The notes under the pieces were generated by a model, which saw only the letters and a list, made by a program, of their open reading frames with translations, was not told where the DNA came from and searched no databases. The position numbers and the translations under genes were made by a program. Below are positions 1 through 7,202 of a DNA stretch of 7,233 bases, piece by piece. Source of the stretch: Paracoccaceae bacterium (lineage in GTDB: Bacteria > Pseudomonadota > Alphaproteobacteria > Rhodobacterales > Rhodobacteraceae); NCBI GenBank assembly GCA_003447515.1, contig DLZA01000019.1, positions 1 through 7,233 on the forward strand. Reading direction: 5' to 3'. How positions within the stretch are numbered: position 1 is the first letter of the stretch; the number at the start of each line of letters is the position of its first letter.

Positions 1-24
1 GCAACATAGTCTTTAAACACAGTG
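1..24 (+). repeat. 24-bp imperfect direct repeat, left copy
   Basis: Positions 1-24 match 7179-7202 at 21 of 24 bases without gaps. The inner 19 bases (6-24 against 7184-7202) differ at one position only. The shared core includes AAACACAGTG. The two copies lie just outside the complete genes of the window, one on each flank. The copies have diverged slightly, so they are not a fresh target-site duplication. The left copy may begin outside the window. Confidence 0.5.
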
Positions 25-185: not shown

Positions 186-1307
186 TCAATATATCAGTTT
201 ATGCAGGGGAAGTAGTGCTGCGCCAATATGAGCTGGGTCGAATGGAATATTGCTGACCCTTAAGACTGGGTTCGGAGTTAATTGCCCTTCAAAGGCTCCA
301 CTTGCAGTTTCCACTAGTCGTTCTCTGAGATAAGTAGGGGCTTCGCCTCCAAAAACAATTTCGTTTGGATCAACCACTGCCTTGAGTGCTCTGATTGATA
401 AGCAAAGCTGAGGCCTGATCTCCTCGAGCCAATTAGAGATCACAGGGTTAGATGGATCAATATTTTTTGTAAGCATTTGAATGTTCGAAATACTGTATGA
501 TGCCTTGTTAAGCCTTTTTACTAACTCTCCGAGCGCAGGGCGTTTGTTTGCTTGATCAGACGTAAAGATTGTACTGATCTCACCTGCATTGCCGTGGCCT
601 CCTAAGAATGCGTCCCGCTCTACAAAAAGGCCGGCGCCGTACCCATAATTAAACGATAGATAGGCAAGACAATGAGGATCGGAACCATCGCTTGCGCCTA
701 AGTAGAATTCAGCAGTTGCGCTACAGGTCGCATTGTTTTCAGCAAATACGGGCAATCCAAAGTGGCTACTAAATTCTTTAGCCAAAGGATAGTTTGCCCA
801 TTTTGCTAATGGTGATGGTGCAACAAATATGCCTCGGCGCTCCACCCGGTGGCCCTGCATAGCAATGCCTAATCCTAATATTTGGTTTTGCGATAACTCT
901 TCGCTCAACCATTGCGCTATTTTTGCTTCAAAGGCAGCTATGAGCTTGCGTGGTTCGCCTGGATCAACTTCAAGGATATCTTGATGAATCGGTTGGCCTG
1001 CAAGATCCATGGCGCACACTTTGGCTTCTTCGGTTCCAATGGAAATACCTATAGAAATAAATCGTTTTGTTTCAATTTTAACCCGTGGGCTAGGTTTTCC
1101 ACGACCAGAAATATACGGGTCGTCCAACCTCAGAAGATCGCGTTCTGCAAGGTTATCTACAATTCTATGTACTGATTGTTGTGAAAGGTTTGTGAGCTTG
1201 GTGATATCAGCCCTAGCAATTGGCATGTTTCGCAACACGGTTGACATCACTGTACGCTCACTGCCGGTCGGACGCTCTGTTTCTTTCATTGTCGTAAATT
1301 TTTTCAT
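186..1307 (-). CDS. ROK-family transcriptional repressor, probable regulator of the divergent transport operon
   Basis: This 373-residue protein has the length and layout of ROK repressors such as NagC, Mlc and XylR. A winged helix-turn-helix occupies about residues 18-78 (helices around ARADITKLTNLS and QSVHRIVDNL), followed by a ROK sugar-kinase fold. The fold begins with the phosphate-loop-like ISIGISIGT at 85-92 and includes ENNATCSATAE at 190-200, GGHGNAGE at 236-243 and IVFGGE at 317-322. In ROK kinases the middle motif is E-N-D-A-N with a catalytic Asp. Here that Asp is Asn192, so sugar kinase activity is unlikely. The usual GEIGH His and the CxCGxxGC zinc cluster are also absent. The start at 1307 has no clear Shine-Dalgarno sequence, and an in-frame ATG at 1289 is a possible alternative. 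It is transcribed away from the ABC operon, next to two palindromes, which suggests repression of the operon and of itself. The ligand is presumably a sugar, polyol or phosphate derivative (inference). Confidence 0.9.
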   Translation of the reverse strand: MKKFTTMKETERPTGSERTVMSTVLRNMPIARADITKLTNLSQQSVHRIVDNLAERDLLRLDDPYISGRGKPSPRVKIETKRFISIGISIGTEEAKVCAMDLAGQPIHQDILEVDPGEPRKLIAAFEAKIAQWLSEELSQNQILGLGIAMQGHRVERRGIFVAPSPLAKWANYPLAKEFSSHFGLPVFAENNATCSATAEFYLGASDGSDPHCLAYLSFNYGYGAGLFVERDAFLGGHGNAGEISTIFTSDQANKRPALGELVKRLNKASYSISNIQMLTKNIDPSNPVISNWLEEIRPQLCLSIRALKAVVDPNEIVFGGEAPTYLRERLVETASGAFEGQLTPNPVLRVSNIPFDPAHIGAALLPLHKLIY

Positions 1308-1455: not shown

Positions 1456-2499
1456 GTGGCAGCAATCGGGATCAGAAACTTATCTAAGTCGTTTGATGGA
1501 TTTCAAGCATTATCTAAATTTTCATTAGACGTTCAGCAAGGCGAGTTTCTCACGCTGCTTGGGCCTTCTGGCTGTGGAAAAACTACTCTGTTAAAGATCA
1601 TTTCAGGTTTTTTAGAGCCATCTACAGGATCGATTTCCATCGGTGGAGAAGATATTACCCGTGTGCCACCTGAAAACCGAGACACTGCTTTATGTTTTCA
1701 ATCTTACGCACTGTTCCCACACCTCAACGTGCTGCAAAACCTCGAATTTGGATTGAAGCAGAAACGTGTTTCTCGAGATCAAAGAGATGCAAGGGTAAGC
1801 GAAGTTGCAGCCAAGCTTGGACTTGAAACCCAGCTGAGTAAATTGCCCAATCAACTGTCTGGAGGACAACAACAACGTGTCTCTTTAGGACGTGCTCTGG
1901 TCATGCGTCCAAGTGTAATTTTATTTGACGAGCCACTGTCTAACTTGGATGCAAAACTTCGAGATCAAGTTCGGGTAGAAATTCGCCGAATTCAGCAAGA
2001 TTATAGTTTGACTGCAATTTACGTAACTCACGATCAATCTGAGGCTTTGGCTATGTCAGATCGGATTGTCGTTCTTAACGACGGTAAAATTGTACAGGTT
2101 GATACGCCCGAGCAGCTATATGCGCAGCCTAAAACGCGCTTTGTTGCCGATTTTATTGGTGGTGCTAATTTGATAACCGGCAGGGTTTGTAGTCAAACGA
2201 AAGAGAATCTTACTTCCGTCGAGACTCTGATGGGTCAAATCCAAACATCTCATCGCATTAATAAAAGTAGTGAAAATGTTGAGCTGTGTTGGCGACCAGA
2301 GCGGGCACAGATAGGCAAAGGGCCCTATTGCGGGACAATTGTGCACCGTGCGTTTCAAGGTCAATTTACCGACCTTATTTTAGAAGAAAACGATATGATC
2401 TTTCGCATTCAAACCAATAATGACAGGTTTCGCGTTGGAGAAGTTATCACATTTTCAATTTTGCCTGATGACGTGGTTGTACTTGAGGCGGACGGATGA
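1456..2499 (+). CDS. ABC transporter ATP-binding protein, PotA/FbpC-like
   Basis: This 347-residue cytoplasmic ATPase energises the importer encoded downstream. All catalytic motifs are intact: Walker A GPSGCGKT (36-43), Q-loop Gln82, signature LSGGQQQR (134-141), Walker B VILFDEP (154-160), D-loop SNLD (162-165) and switch His192. Residues from about 235 to the end form a C-terminal TOBE-like regulatory domain, including the characteristic WRPERAQIG at 279-287. Length and architecture match the spermidine/putrescine and iron(III)/sugar-phosphate (Pot, Fbp, Afu) ATPase group. It starts with GTG behind a good Shine-Dalgarno sequence. Its stop overlaps the next start in ATGA (2496-2499), which implies translational coupling to the first permease. 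The family is certain, but the substrate is not: automatic labels such as 'polyamine' should not be trusted for this group. Confidence 0.95.
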   Translation: MAAIGIRNLSKSFDGFQALSKFSLDVQQGEFLTLLGPSGCGKTTLLKIISGFLEPSTGSISIGGEDITRVPPENRDTALCFQSYALFPHLNVLQNLEFGLKQKRVSRDQRDARVSEVAAKLGLETQLSKLPNQLSGGQQQRVSLGRALVMRPSVILFDEPLSNLDAKLRDQVRVEIRRIQQDYSLTAIYVTHDQSEALAMSDRIVVLNDGKIVQVDTPEQLYAQPKTRFVADFIGGANLITGRVCSQTKENLTSVETLMGQIQTSHRINKSSENVELCWRPERAQIGKGPYCGTIVHRAFQGQFTDLILEENDMIFRIQTNNDRFRVGEVITFSILPDDVVVLEADG

Positions 2500-3350
2500 C
2501 GATGCGCAACTGGATTCAGATCTTTGCACTTCTTATGCCTGGTCTTGGTTTAATCCTAGTCTTGATTGGATCAGTTGTGTATATCGCTATCGCCCAGTCA
2601 TTTGGATATTATGCACTGCTTGGTGAAAGTGCGTTTAGTACTGAATTCTGGTCTGAAGTATTTAGCAGAAAAATATTTTCTCGCGCGGTGCGGTATTCAA
2701 TTTATATAGGCTTCTGGAGCGCTGTTTTATCGGTTGCGCTTGCTTATCCACTAGCAATTTGGTTGCGCAAACCATTCCCCGGATCGATCGGTTTGGGCGC
2801 ACTTTTGAAAGCACCGCTGTTGGTGCATGGGTTGGTTGCGGCCTTTCTTTATATTAATGTTATTTCCTACAACGGACTGCTTAACCAGACAATGCAAGGA
2901 ATTGGTATTTGGGCCGAACCACGACGTCTTCAAAATGACTCAAATGCATTTGGCGTTCTGCTGCTGCAGGTTTGGAAAAATATGCCATTTGCTTTGCTAG
3001 TTTTAACTGGTTCTGTACAGGGTATTTCTGATGACGTGCTAGACGCAGCACGCGATTTAGGGGCTGGCCCCTGGGCGCGATTTCGAAAAATTATTGCGCC
3101 TCTTACCATGTCGGGTATGCAGGCTGCGATGGTAATCATATTCATTGGCGCACTAGCAGATTTTACTTTTCAAACAACTGTTGGTCCAACCAATCGCCAA
3201 TCGATGGCGCAGTTAATGGTCAGTTTTAAATCTCGGGGTGATTGGCATTCGGCCGCAGTTGTTGGCGTGTCTTTGATGATTATTGCGCTTCTAGGTTCCG
3301 CCTTACTGGCATTATTGACACGTACGGTGATGCGAGGAAGCCCAAGATGA
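2496..3350 (+). CDS. ABC transporter permease, PotB-like (first membrane subunit)
   Basis: This 284-residue inner-membrane protein has about six hydrophobic segments, near residues 9-34, 67-90, 100-123, 150-172, 207-230 and 253-275. The EAA-type cytoplasmic coupling loop, DAARDLGAGPWARF (183-196), docks onto the ATPase, and its position between the fourth and fifth segments is typical. The ATG lies inside the ATGA overlap with the ATPase gene, with GAGG at 2485-2488 as its ribosome site. A second ATG two codons later (2502) is possible but has poorer spacing. It forms a heterodimeric channel with the next gene product. The family assignment is firm; the imported solute cannot be deduced from the membrane subunit. 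Confidence 0.93.
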   Translation: MTMRNWIQIFALLMPGLGLILVLIGSVVYIAIAQSFGYYALLGESAFSTEFWSEVFSRKIFSRAVRYSIYIGFWSAVLSVALAYPLAIWLRKPFPGSIGLGALLKAPLLVHGLVAAFLYINVISYNGLLNQTMQGIGIWAEPRRLQNDSNAFGVLLLQVWKNMPFALLVLTGSVQGISDDVLDAARDLGAGPWARFRKIIAPLTMSGMQAAMVIIFIGALADFTFQTTVGPTNRQSMAQLMVSFKSRGDWHSAAVVGVSLMIIALLGSALLALLTRTVMRGSPR

Positions 3351-4174
3351 GCTATGCAAGGTTGAATTCGCTGCTCATCGTAATGATTGTAACTGTAGCG
3401 TTGATATGGCTGGCAATTCCTTTCACGATGGCGATCCTTTGGTCGCTTGTCGATCCTGCTGAGCCCTGGACAGCTGATAAGTTATTGCCTCCGGTAATGT
3501 CATTTTACCGCTGGGTAGACATGTGGGAAAATTCATCTTTAAAATATGCACTGATTTCATCATACTCACTTGCTCCGACAGCAGCCATATTGGGGCTCTG
3601 CCTCGCCATGCCAACGGCCTTTGCTTTGGGGCGATTTAATTTTGCGGGGCGCGAACTTGCTAAGCTGTTATGTCTGTTACCATTAGTCGTGCCGCCTTTT
3701 ATAACGGCAATTTTCTTTTCAGCCCTACTTTTTCAGCTTGGTCTTAATACTTGGCGTTTTGGGGCAATAGTTTTTGCGCACTCTATATTATTTTTACCCT
3801 ACGCAATTCGTATACTTACAGTAAGCTTCGAAAATGTTCGCCAAGACCATATTGATGCTGCCCGTGACTTAGGCGCGAGTCCGTGGGCGCGGTTTCGTGT
3901 TGCGTATTTACCAGCTTTAAAACCCGGAATTTCAGCCACTTTATTAATAGTATTTATTCAATCAATCGAAGAATTCGCAATCGCTTTTATCATCGGTTCA
4001 CCGGATATAGTTACAATACCAACCCTTCTGTATTCTGCACTTGGTCAGGACTTTGTTCGTCCAAATGCCGCTGTGCTGTCACTCATCCTAGTCGTTCCTA
4101 ATGTGTTCTTAATGTTGATATTGGAACGGCTTATGCGATCTGCCAACCCGGCGTTATCGTCGGGTAAAGGGTAG
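3347..4174 (+). CDS. ABC transporter permease, PotC-like (second membrane subunit)
   Basis: This 275-residue inner-membrane protein pairs with the upstream permease. Hydrophobic segments lie near residues 9-33, 67-93, 104-130, 137-157, 194-217 and 241-260. The EAA-type loop is DAARDLGASPWARF (170-183), nearly identical to that of its partner, as expected for paired subunits that contact the same ATPase dimer. I chose ATG 3347 over the longer in-frame ATG at 3242. It forms an ATGA overlap with the preceding stop, has GAGGA at 3334-3338 at good distance, and the extra 35 residues of the longer form would overlap the first permease and look unlike a membrane protein start. The binding-protein gene begins 34 bp after the stop. 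Confidence 0.93.
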   Translation: MSYARLNSLLIVMIVTVALIWLAIPFTMAILWSLVDPAEPWTADKLLPPVMSFYRWVDMWENSSLKYALISSYSLAPTAAILGLCLAMPTAFALGRFNFAGRELAKLLCLLPLVVPPFITAIFFSALLFQLGLNTWRFGAIVFAHSILFLPYAIRILTVSFENVRQDHIDAARDLGASPWARFRVAYLPALKPGISATLLIVFIQSIEEFAIAFIIGSPDIVTIPTLLYSALGQDFVRPNAAVLSLILVVPNVFLMLILERLMRSANPALSSGKG

Positions 4175-4194
4175 CTGGGATTAACAAACTTAAC

Positions 4195-4201
4195 AAAGGA
4201 G
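4195..4201 (+). promoter_or_regulatory. Strong ribosome binding site of the binding-protein gene
   Basis: AAAGGAG lies 7 nt before the ATG at 4209. It is the best Shine-Dalgarno sequence in the window, in keeping with the need for binding protein in excess over the membrane subunits. Confidence 0.75.
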
Positions 4202-4208
4202 AAAGAAA

Positions 4209-5312
4209 ATGTTCAAAAAACTATTTACGACTGCTGCTGCTTTGGGGGCGTTTATGACACCCTTACATGCTGGCGACCTATCAACGATGAGTTGGGACGA
4301 AATCGTAGCGCAAGCCAAAGAAGAAAGTAATTTAACCTGGTACGTTTGGTATCTGCAAGATGATTTTAGACGTGCGATCAGTTCATTTGAAGATGAGTAC
4401 GGTATTTCAGTAAAAATTCCAGATGGTGATAACGCTGGTAATTCACAAAAAATGTTAGCAGAAAAAGACCGCGAAACCGGTGACATTGATGTGTTCGCCT
4501 GGGGTTATGATAGCTTTGAAACTGTTGAGTTGAAATCTCTTTTCAATAGTCTGGACAAGCTTCCTAAAGATGATGGACGGGTTTCAAAGCTTGCAGGCGT
4601 TGATGGTGGCGACCATGTTTTGGCTTTCTGGGGGAACCAATCAGGTATTGCCTATGACCCAGCAAAAGTGAGTGAAGCAGACCTTCCGCAGTCGATTGAC
4701 GATTTCGCCACTTTCTGGACGGATCATCCAAACAAGTTCGGTTTTAATTATGAAAAGGGCGGTTCGGGCCCCTCCTTTTATCAAAACGTATTGCGAAACG
4801 TTGCCGGAGTTGATTTCTCCAACGGAGAGGTTTCTGATGCGCGGATTGCAGCCGTTCAGCCGGGTTTTGATTTTTTTAATAAACACGCAGCAAATTACAT
4901 CATCACAGCGTCTAACGTCGACAATATCAATAGGGTTAGTGATAAAGAGCTGTGGATGGCTCCAGCATGGGAAGATCACCTTGCAGGACTTCAAAACCGT
5001 GGCGAAGTACGGAAAGAAATCAAATTCTACATCCCAGAAATGGGTATGAACGGTGGAGGAAACGGCGTTGCCATTCCAAAGAATGCACCTCATCCCGCGG
5101 CAGCAATGGTCTTTGTCAATTGGCTAACATCACCTGAGACACAGACGATGTTCAACCGAGATTTTGGCACTGCCCCGATGAATGCTGCGGCAGATGACAG
5201 TGCAGCTTTGGTTCCTAATGAACAACGCGCTTTCCGCCAGTCATGGGGTAAACAGCCATTTCGTAGTAAGGTCGAAGAGGCCTTTATCGACAATGTGATT
5301 CTTGAGCGTTAA
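4209..5312 (+). CDS. Periplasmic extracellular solute-binding protein of the ABC importer
   Basis: This 367-residue secreted receptor delivers solute to the two-permease channel. A classical signal peptide is visible: positive start MFKKLF, a hydrophobic core to about residue 17, and cleavage after PLHA (residue 21). The mature protein has the two-lobe binding-protein pattern. The first lobe begins at NLTWYVWYLQDDF (41-53), GDIDVFAWGY (91-100) leads to a hinge-like GNQSGIAYDP (142-151), and GNGVAIPKNAPHPAAA (284-299) with FVNWLTSPETQ (302-312) is the C-terminal block common to the PotD/FbpA/AfuA-type families. No lipobox cysteine is present, so it should be freely periplasmic. AfuA, a member of this broad group, binds sugar phosphates, a precedent that suits the phosphatase and phosphoesterase genes downstream. 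The ligand is unproven. Confidence 0.9.
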   Translation: MFKKLFTTAAALGAFMTPLHAGDLSTMSWDEIVAQAKEESNLTWYVWYLQDDFRRAISSFEDEYGISVKIPDGDNAGNSQKMLAEKDRETGDIDVFAWGYDSFETVELKSLFNSLDKLPKDDGRVSKLAGVDGGDHVLAFWGNQSGIAYDPAKVSEADLPQSIDDFATFWTDHPNKFGFNYEKGGSGPSFYQNVLRNVAGVDFSNGEVSDARIAAVQPGFDFFNKHAANYIITASNVDNINRVSDKELWMAPAWEDHLAGLQNRGEVRKEIKFYIPEMGMNGGGNGVAIPKNAPHPAAAMVFVNWLTSPETQTMFNRDFGTAPMNAAADDSAALVPNEQRAFRQSWGKQPFRSKVEEAFIDNVILER

Positions 5313-5329
5313 GCGCTTCTAAAACTCAG

Positions 5330-5359
5330 TGCGGCGCCGGTTCTTCCACCGGCTCCGCA
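5330..5359 (+). terminator. GC-rich intercistronic hairpin without U-tract (attenuator or mRNA stabiliser)
   Basis: GCCGGT (5336-5341) pairs with ACCGGC (5348-5353) around a 6-nt loop. After one C/T mismatch the stem continues with GCGG (5331-5334) and CCGC (5355-5358) and a T-A pair. This gives about 11 pairs in an otherwise AT-leaning region. No T-run follows (the next bases are GCCATAAAACG), so it is not a classical intrinsic terminator. Its place just after the binding-protein stop suits partial termination or protection of the upstream mRNA 3' end, as in other binding-protein operons. Confidence 0.6.
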
Positions 5360-5389
5360 GCCATAAAACGAATTTGGTATGAAAAAATC

Positions 5390-6196
5390 ATGTTATCTGA
5401 TGTGACTACGAAAAGAACCGCGGATAGTGTGCGTGAAGATATTTTTCAGTACCTATCTGGTCAAAATACTGCTCTGGAGTTTCCAAAGGCGATTACAAAA
5501 CCTGGACAGGGTGGAAAGTTTGACACTTATGGAAACGTTATGCATCATCCTGGAAATACTTTTGTTTGCCATGTTGATCAAAAATCCGATTTCTTTGTTT
5601 CCCTATGTGCCCTTCAAGATGGGTTAAAAAGGTCAGCTTTAGCGAGTAATTATACTTTTTTGCCGCAGCACAGTTTTCATATGACTATTTTTTGTGGGAT
5701 TAGTGGATCCCCTTTGGGAGTAGATGGTTGGCCGAAAGGAATGCCTTTATCCGCAAATCTCGATCAAATTACTCAGCAGTTTGATACTAAGATTTCCGCC
5801 TGGGAAAAATTTAATAAGGTCCTTATGCAACCGTCAGGGATGTCAATGCCTGGTACCGTTCGTATGATCCCTGCTACGGATATAGACGCTCGCATTCTAC
5901 GAGAAGCCCGACACCAACTGCAGGATCTAACGGGGCTGTATCGGAATGACATTGATACGTATGAATTTCACATAAGTTTAGGCTATTTAAAGCAATGGTA
6001 TAACGATGATGAAGCAGCTGCCGCGATAGCGGAGGCTGATAGTCTTTTTTACAGCCATTTGAGCGCTTACAGAGATTTAGAGTTTGGCCCCATTGAATTT
6101 TGTAAGTTTCAAAACATGCATTATTTCGAAATAATTAGGGTTCTTGGTAATGCCAGTCTTAAAATGAACAACTGGCGTGCAAGCGTTGAAAATTAA
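5390..6196 (+). CDS. DUF1868 / 2H-phosphoesterase-like protein
   Basis: This 268-residue protein is predicted to be cytoplasmic, with no signal peptide or membrane segment. The block GGKFDTYGNVMHHPGNTFVC (41-60) is the typical opening of DUF1868 proteins. Two short His motifs, HMT (His97, Thr99) and HIS (His194, Ser196), are about 97 residues apart and fit the paired HxT/HxS signature of the 2H phosphoesterase superfamily. Members cleave 2',3'-cyclic or 1,2-cyclic phosphates or related diesters. Function within DUF1868 is not established, so activity here is inferred from the motifs. ATG 5390 has only a weak ribosome site but allows the full domain. It lies between a transporter and a phosphatase gene, suggesting that it converts the imported compound into a phosphomonoester. 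Confidence 0.8.
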   Translation: MLSDVTTKRTADSVREDIFQYLSGQNTALEFPKAITKPGQGGKFDTYGNVMHHPGNTFVCHVDQKSDFFVSLCALQDGLKRSALASNYTFLPQHSFHMTIFCGISGSPLGVDGWPKGMPLSANLDQITQQFDTKISAWEKFNKVLMQPSGMSMPGTVRMIPATDIDARILREARHQLQDLTGLYRNDIDTYEFHISLGYLKQWYNDDEAAAAIAEADSLFYSHLSAYRDLEFGPIEFCKFQNMHYFEIIRVLGNASLKMNNWRASVEN

Positions 6197-6198
6197 GA

Positions 6199-7002
6199 GT
6201 GAACGATGCAATGAATTGGAATGCAAAATCAAAAATTGCCCAGAAAATTGTGACGGAAGCAAGTACGCTGGCCTTGGAGCATTTTGATAATATATCCAGC
6301 CTGCAGATCGAGCAAAAAGGTCATCAAGATTTTTTAAGCCAAGCCGATAAAGCTGTAGAAGCTTTTATTCGCGAAAAGCTTGATTTGCATTTCCCTGATG
6401 ATGGGATTGTAGGAGAAGAAGATAAAAGAAAGCCAAGTAAATCTGGTTTTACATGGGTGATTGATCCTATTGATGGAACAGCTAATTTTATTAAAGGTAT
6501 TCCCGCATGGGTAGTCGTTCTAGCAGGTGTTTATGAAGATAAAGTAGCAATAGGAATAATTTTTGATGCATGCCATAATGAAATGTTTTCAGCTATTGTG
6601 AACCAAGGGGCTTTCCTCAATGGCAAGCGGATACCACCTCTTGGCGAAGGGCTGTTGAAAGAGGGAAGCGTTGGAGTTGGATTTTCTAATTGCGCTTCCA
6701 CGAAATGGACCATCAGTATCATAAGCCAAATTTTAGATGAAGGAGGCGTTTTTCAACGGAATGCATCCGGTGCCCTTTCACTCGCCTATGTAGCTACAGG
6801 TCGTTTATTAGGCTACGTAGAAGAATATATGAATGCTTGGGATTGCTTGGCTGGGCAGTTACTTGTCGCTGAAGCCGGGGGTGTTATCGAATTGCAATCA
6901 GCCAATGCAATGATTGAAAATGGAGGTGAGGTCATTGTCGGTGTTCCGGGTATTTTTGAAAAACTTCTTGAAATATCTCGAAAGGCTAAGATGCTGGTAT
7001 AA
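6199..7002 (+). CDS. Inositol-monophosphatase-family phosphatase
   Basis: This 267-residue Mg-dependent phosphatase has the usual family length. Metal and catalytic residues are intact: VGEED (71-75, with the metal-binding Glu), WVIDPIDGTANF (86-97, with Asp89, Asp92 and Thr94) and NAWDCLAGQLLVAEAGG (212-228, with Asp215). GALSLAYVATGRL (191-203) is the conserved segment before the last motif. Substrates in the family include myo-inositol phosphate, histidinol phosphate, fructose bisphosphate, PAP and, for AccG of Ti plasmids, a sugar phosphate, so sequence alone does not fix the substrate. The GTG at 6199 lies 2 bp after the previous stop and has no clear ribosome site. ATG 6211, four codons in, is an equally possible start. 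The tight spacing implies co-transcription with the phosphoesterase gene. No terminator is visible downstream. Confidence 0.92.
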   Translation: MNDAMNWNAKSKIAQKIVTEASTLALEHFDNISSLQIEQKGHQDFLSQADKAVEAFIREKLDLHFPDDGIVGEEDKRKPSKSGFTWVIDPIDGTANFIKGIPAWVVVLAGVYEDKVAIGIIFDACHNEMFSAIVNQGAFLNGKRIPPLGEGLLKEGSVGVGFSNCASTKWTISIISQILDEGGVFQRNASGALSLAYVATGRLLGYVEEYMNAWDCLAGQLLVAEAGGVIELQSANAMIENGGEVIVGVPGIFEKLLEISRKAKMLV

Positions 7003-7178: not shown

Positions 7179-7202
7179 GCATAATAGTCTTCAAACACAG
7201 TG
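7179..7202 (+). repeat. 24-bp imperfect direct repeat, right copy, overlapping a 15-bp palindrome
   Basis: This copy matches 1-24 at 21 of 24 positions. Here the repeat runs into a perfect palindrome, CAAACACaGTGTTTG (7192-7206), with 7-bp arms around one base; the left copy keeps only the inner CACaGTG of it. The surrounding stretch 7072-7233 contains no gene I can support, only AT-rich sequence with a short tandem ATTTCAAT (7071-7078 and 7081-7088). Confidence 0.5.

Follow-up and report, generated by a model that had tools for sequence, protein, structure and literature searches.

The locus considered here raises the question of what a bacterium takes up, and then cleaves, with an operon in which the genes of an ATP-binding cassette (ABC) importer are followed by those of a DUF1868 protein with the two-histidine (2H) phosphoesterase fold and of an inositol-monophosphatase (IMP)-family phosphatase. 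The window, the whole stretch of DNA that was analysed, is an entire contig of 7,233 bases (DLZA01000019.1, from a Paracoccaceae bacterium) of genome bin G000, which is rated 71% complete. The answer favoured here, to which rather less than an even chance is given, is that the ABC importer would bring in a hexose-1-phosphodiester or a hexose-1,2-cyclic phosphate, that the DUF1868 2H enzyme would open this diester to hexose-1-phosphate, and that the IMP-family phosphatase would split the latter into hexose and phosphate, galactose being the likeliest sugar. An earlier note on this DNA had proposed a polyol or sugar diester as the substrate; the repeated occurrence of importer, 2H and phosphatase genes together supports that proposal in part, and because galT, phosphomannomutase (PMM) and phn genes neighbour DUF1868 in other loci, the product can be narrowed towards a sugar-1-phosphate. 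These neighbours favour a role for DUF1868 in opening a sugar-1-phosphodiester, which may be 1,2-cyclic, to give the sugar-1-phosphate. The features of the window are the following.

186 to 1307, minus strand: ROK-family gene, likely regulator (PF00480, E 1.5e-20; weak MarR_2 match; N-terminal helix-turn-helix-like stretch)
1381 to 1403, no strand: candidate operator palindrome, TTATTAC-N9-GTAATAA with 1 mismatch
1406 to 1428, no strand: candidate ROK operator, perfect palindrome TTATTAC-N9-GTAATAA
1456 to 2499, plus strand: ABC importer ATPase (PF00005, E 7.9e-35; TOBE_2)
2496 to 3350, plus strand: ABC permease 1 (PF00528)
3347 to 4174, plus strand: ABC permease 2 (PF00528)
4209 to 5312, plus strand: extracellular solute-binding protein (PF13416, E 9.5e-25; model with a predicted local distance difference test score, pLDDT, of 89.7)
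5330 to 5359, plus strand: stable hairpin in the 77-nt gap between the binding-protein and DUF1868 genes (−23.8 kcal/mol, z −3.1)
5390 to 6196, plus strand: DUF1868 2H phosphoesterase-fold protein, predicted phosphodiesterase (PF08975, E 6.6e-25)
6199 to 7002, plus strand: IMP-family phosphatase (PF00459, E 7.8e-49, with motifs)

The gene set named in the earlier note, a complete importer, a two-histidine DUF1868 protein, an IMP-family enzyme and a divergent ROK gene, is present and intact. By Pfam assignment, the six plus-strand genes run in the order ATPase, permease, permease, binding protein, DUF1868, IMP-family phosphatase, with the ROK gene beside them, and they are closely packed; their junctions (two overlaps of 4 bp, −4 and −4, then gaps of 34, 77, and 2 bp) fit a single transcript, within which the hairpin perhaps favours the binding-protein mRNA. 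The ROK domain scores 74.4 bits against a Pfam cut-off of 22.9, and in NCBIfam the protein has a NagC-like match (95 bits, under the cut-off). Since none of the 7 window proteins reaches an NCBIfam curated cut-off, the description of the importer as Pot/Fbp-type denotes a class and not a substrate. A 24-nt direct repeat (88%) is found near both contig ends, at window positions 1-24 and 7179-7202, and is perhaps the reason for the assembly break there.

The DUF1868 protein has both the motifs and the fold of the 2H superfamily and is predicted to be a phosphodiesterase. It scores 87.8 bits against a PF08975 cut-off of 21 and carries HMT at residues 97-99 and HIS at 194-196; His97, Met98, Thr99, and His194 are invariant in 25 aligned sequences, and among 89 DUF1868 frames of at least 200 residues the first 2H motif is found in all 89 and the second in 85. 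The fold is supported by a predicted model (pLDDT 89.5) and is common to LigT, Usb1, AKAP18, and CNPase. This kinship, together with the occurrence of some DUF1868 genes amid unrelated genes, would suit a LigT-like 2′,3′-cyclic phosphodiesterase of RNA or nucleotides that is simply sited near importer genes, but DUF1868 is repeatedly linked with importers, IMP-family genes, and ROK genes and occurs only here and there (in 33 of 394 genomes in the family of the window and 4 of 385 in the class sample); such an activity is judged very improbable. In the phylum sample, in which 12 DUF1868 places were looked at more closely, 16 of 398 genomes have the gene.

The phosphatase is likewise well preserved (PF00459, 167 bits against a cut-off of 27). 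Its metal-binding and active-site motifs, GEE from residue 72, DPIDGT from 89, and WD from 214, are kept, as the earlier note had held in calling it catalytically intact, and an alignment of 12 IMP-family proteins shows no variation at Glu73, Glu74, Asp89, Asp92, Gly93, Thr94, Trp214, and Asp215. It reaches no NCBIfam equivalog cut-off.

The linkage between 2H and phosphatase genes extends beyond the window; the concern that the two might be neighbours only here is answered by their joint presence elsewhere, both in further genera and next to a second type of importer beside ROK. Loci were drawn from a scan of species genomes (56 loci) and from order, family, and class samples, and 87 were compared: the window, 67 of L014-L081 (L069 was excluded, having no DUF1868 match at threshold), and L116-L134; L130 lies on the same contig as L063, leaving 86 distinct, and L147-L158 and the plasmid loci stand outside this set. 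A binding protein of the window type is found within 6 kb of DUF1868 in 35 of the 87, and one resembling UgpB in 15; gene order, too, distinguishes these two operon types. Of the 50 loci with either binding protein, 38 have a ROK gene within 6.5 kb; of the 37 that have neither, 2 do.

In 13 of the 87 loci, the gene directly downstream of DUF1868, on its own strand, is of the IMP family. In the family sample this is so in 8 of 33 DUF1868 genomes (33 genera), versus about 0.022 expected from random placement of the 170 IMP-family genes of those genomes at 0.95 genes per kb. Two of the eight are of the window type (the window and L014), four have a UgpB-like importer (L029, L038, L042, and L081), and in the remaining two (L036 and L131) no window-type or UgpB-like importer was found; because the window and L014 are near-identical, seven of the eight are distinct. 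The phosphatase could be missed in 5 loci, since these have fewer than 600 bases downstream, and the contig of L016 ends where the IMP gene would stand. In Thalassospira L033 one IMP gene is on the far side of ROK, and L045 combines an IMP gene and DUF1868 with an importer of a third type, whose permease is fused. Annotated plasmid records of Alloyangia, Thioclava, and Rhizobium etli contain operons of ROK, binding protein, two permeases, UgpC, DUF1868, and inositol monophosphatase, followed by a PhoX phosphatase gene in Alloyangia and a glycerophosphodiesterase gene in Thioclava. Rhizobium BT04 has ROK, ATPase, two permeases, binding protein, and DUF1868, and Deinococcus gobiensis a LacI gene, importer, and DUF1868.

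Both operon types have the palindrome TTATTAC-N9-GTAATAA in the gap that separates the ROK gene from the importer genes. For the perfect and the 1-mismatch copies of the window, 0.04 matches are expected for both together. The perfect form is present exactly once per genome in G000, G196, G197, G198, and G894 (to which the UgpB-type locus L029 belongs), the same five in which a reversed control pattern gave no match; its position in the ROK-importer gap was confirmed for the window, L016, L017, and L029, and not for G196. Further operons of both types carry other sites. The common palindrome suggests related ROK regulators with a similar inducer, which would be the freed sugar or a sugar phosphate.

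The identity of the sugar is approached most closely through four sister operons (L018, L019, L020, and L023) that have galT between the binding-protein and DUF1868 genes. The GalT of L018 (L018:8935-10005) exceeds both NCBIfam cut-offs, with 524 and 480 bits, and the other three match it. Each of the four genomes has a single GalT match, at the importer operon. Compared with the Leloir pathway, GalT is found in the sister operons, none in the window, and no PF10509 galactokinase was found in the four genomes, in which other galactose kinase families were not searched; GalT would therefore need another source of galactose-1-phosphate. It should be noted that PF10509 is missing from 11 of the 13 genomes searched, and that only two of the galT-operon genomes, the sampled copies of the marine isolate HTCC2150 (L019) and of CCMM004, have a known completeness (99%). 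The binding proteins of L018 and L023 are 76% and 71% identical to that of the window. In a tree of 33 of the 35 window-type loci (L031, whose gene appears split, and L044, at a contig end, were left out, and the 627-residue frame of L025 was trimmed to its last 375 residues), the clades of the window and of L018-L020 arise with L021 from one fork (93/98, below the star threshold of the tool), and L023 is placed apart. From this identity and the tree it is likely that the window and galT operons take the same ligand. Galactose-1-phosphate is a phosphate ester on which GalT and an IMP-family enzyme could both act: inositol monophosphatase is cited as active on it in PMC3882048, and a plant IMP acts on L-galactose-1-phosphate with a Km near its value for inositol-1-phosphate (PMC3871819). 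In the sister operons, GalT would then turn the hexose-1-phosphate into UDP-galactose, with no kinase needed.

Other neighbours of DUF1868 were identified by profiling five representatives with Pfam and NCBIfam (GalT of L018, PMM of L051, GDPD of L049, the UgpB-like protein of L029, and Na/Pi of L035), the marker genes of other loci being assigned by similarity to these. A PMM-family gene is found in 5 Vibrio loci and a GDPD gene in 5 Vibrionaceae loci, at the divergent cluster. L051 also encodes a 533-residue protein (L051:1248-2846, minus strand) with no Pfam, NCBIfam, or PDB match, which adjoins ROK and a mannosylglucosylglycerate-synthase-like gene and is kept in six Vibrio loci. Na/Pi cotransporter-family genes beside DUF1868 in L023, L035, and L065 are fitting for phosphate release, and a metallophosphoesterase gene is near DUF1868 in 5 loci. 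In L044 (3306-4973) and L067 a type I phosphodiesterase gene lies just upstream of DUF1868, divergent from a window-type importer, and L067 also has a metallophosphoesterase gene just upstream. The GDPD genes, including the one after the Thioclava phosphatase gene, the metallophosphoesterases, and the UgpB/UgpC-like importer of the second operon type would accord with a glycerophosphodiester or glycerol cyclic phosphate that the 2H enzyme converts to glycerol phosphate for hydrolysis by the phosphatase, but this scheme has no place for the GalT and PMM-family genes, and the UgpB-like protein is under the UgpB cut-off (247.5 versus 411 bits); it is judged unlikely, slightly more so than the inositol scheme considered below.

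A further context is the carbon-phosphorus (C-P) lyase operon. In five genomes of one alphaproteobacterial genus (L147, L148, L150, L151, and L152), the gene that comes after DUF1868, itself at about 9.5-10.4 kb, encodes an ABC ATPase. The C-P lyase context was scanned in L148, L150, and L152, and not in L147 or L151: L148 has phnF, G, K, L, a TIGR03308 transferase gene, DUF1868, phnD, and phnE, constituting a C-P lyase operon, the next gene in L150 encodes a phosphonate-binding protein, and L152 has the TIGR03308 transferase gene. The C-P lyase pathway includes ribose-1,2-cyclic phosphate, which is opened by PhnP, an enzyme whose fold differs from the 2H fold. The step expected of DUF1868 is of the same kind, the opening of a sugar-1,2-cyclic phosphate, and here the gene is inside the operon itself. 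No PhnP above the cut-off was found in the genomes with C-P lyase-linked DUF1868, and a TIGR03223 protein that is present in them is a second candidate for the PhnP step.

Several observations weigh against the hexose-1-phosphodiester reading. GalT and IMP never occur in one operon among the loci studied, and in window-type operons an IMP gene adjoining DUF1868 is confined to the lineage of the window, L014, L015, and L017. None of eight marker enzymes exceeds 100 bits in 12 of the 33 window-type loci of the tree, neither binding-protein type is within 6 kb in 37 of the 87 loci, and the fold predicted for the binding protein gives no basis for choosing among AfuA-, UgpB-, PotF-, and FbpA-like proteins. 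DUF1868 is also found in sugar-use clusters without a phosphate clue, with pectin genes in L063, glucokinase in L057 and L080, and a CUT2-type importer in L046, and adjoins housekeeping genes in L116, L118, and L124. Lastly, iolD is above the cut-off in 15 of 17 host genomes, including all three close relatives of the window. This last point would favour inositol-1,2-cyclic phosphate or glycerophosphoinositol as the ligand, cleaved by the 2H enzyme to inositol-1-phosphate, from which the phosphatase, in the reaction for which its family is named, would supply inositol to the iol pathway. However, this scheme leaves unexplained the PMM-family gene in Vibrio and the galT genes in sister operons, whose binding protein is 71-76% identical to that of the window, and no iolD match is above the cut-off in G000, at 71% completeness, or in the GalT-bearing G204; it is considered unlikely.

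The importer might also serve the uptake of a polyamine, iron, or an aminoalkylphosphonate while the two enzymes act on something unrelated. The closest PDB sequence matches of the window binding protein are ferric-binding and polyamine-binding proteins, and the best NCBIfam model for the ATPase is PhnT2 (359.6 bits, below its cut-off), but the enzymes remain linked when the importer type changes, and this alternative is regarded as improbable.

Some DUF1868 genes have other surroundings. In Asticcacaulis L064 (1882-18326) DUF1868 is among four ROK genes and frames of 876-905 residues, and in L134 (10267-12612) the gene adjoining it has a TonB receptor plug domain. An Escherichia coli plasmid (NZ_CP070073.1, L172) has a lone DUF1868 gene at 7962-8762, with no importer nearby, close to a microcin B17-type cluster and pemIK; three further E. 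coli plasmid records contain DUF1868 matches.

A wider proposal, which must be regarded as doubtful, is that DUF1868 proteins are sugar-1,2-cyclic-phosphate (sugar-1-phosphodiester) hydrolases and that these operons reveal an unrecognised marine nutrient class, the imported hexose-1-phosphodiesters. These would reach hexose metabolism by way of a phosphatase in the window lineage and of a galactokinase-free Leloir step in the sister lineage, and some C-P lyase operons would use a member of the same family to open the ring. The favoured reading would give DUF1868 its first role and would point to dissolved sugar phosphodiesters as supplying marine Rhodobacterales with carbon and phosphorus together; the proposed intermediate is directly testable through the galT operons of genomes without PF10509 galactokinase.

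A role for DUF1868 in diester cleavage is suggested by these comparisons, and the literature search found no paper naming DUF1868, PF08975, or COG5255. The structure of Atu0111 from Agrobacterium (PDB 2fsq) was solved as that of an unknown-function protein, and PMC3290555 lists it as such. The plant Appr>p cyclic phosphodiesterase (1jh6 and 1fsi) is a distant relative, with 14% identity and a nucleotide sugar as substrate. The second operon type resembles the Ugp system in having UgpB-like and UgpC-like proteins, of which the former, from L029, scores 247.5 bits as noted; the phosphatases of such operons are just 18-26% identical to that of the window. In PMC12718374, UgpB and GpxB are described as carrying glycerol-1-P and glycerol-3-P and GpxB is assigned to the PhnT family, whereas the window binding protein has no match to the UgpB model (NF008211) at E 0.001 or better.

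The nearest parallel in working is the acc operon of the Ti plasmid (AccA-AccG), which functions in agrocinopine and agrocin 84 uptake and, as is predicted for the window, combines an importer, a cytoplasmic phosphodiesterase, and a phosphatase; the IMP-like phosphatase AccG has a PF00459 counterpart in the window. According to PMC4526662, a sugar phosphodiester is handled there by these three components. No window protein matches PF03009 (GDPD) at E 0.001 or better, and no SBP_bac_5 match is listed for the window binding protein, which belongs to SBP_bac_8. AccF is a GDPD-family phosphodiesterase and AccA a peptide-type binding protein. Because acc-type parts are missing, the operon is not a member of the acc group despite its similar working; with its SBP_bac_8 binding protein, predicted 2H diesterase, and ROK regulator gene, it appears instead, as the earlier note had proposed, to be an analogue of acc built from different parts.

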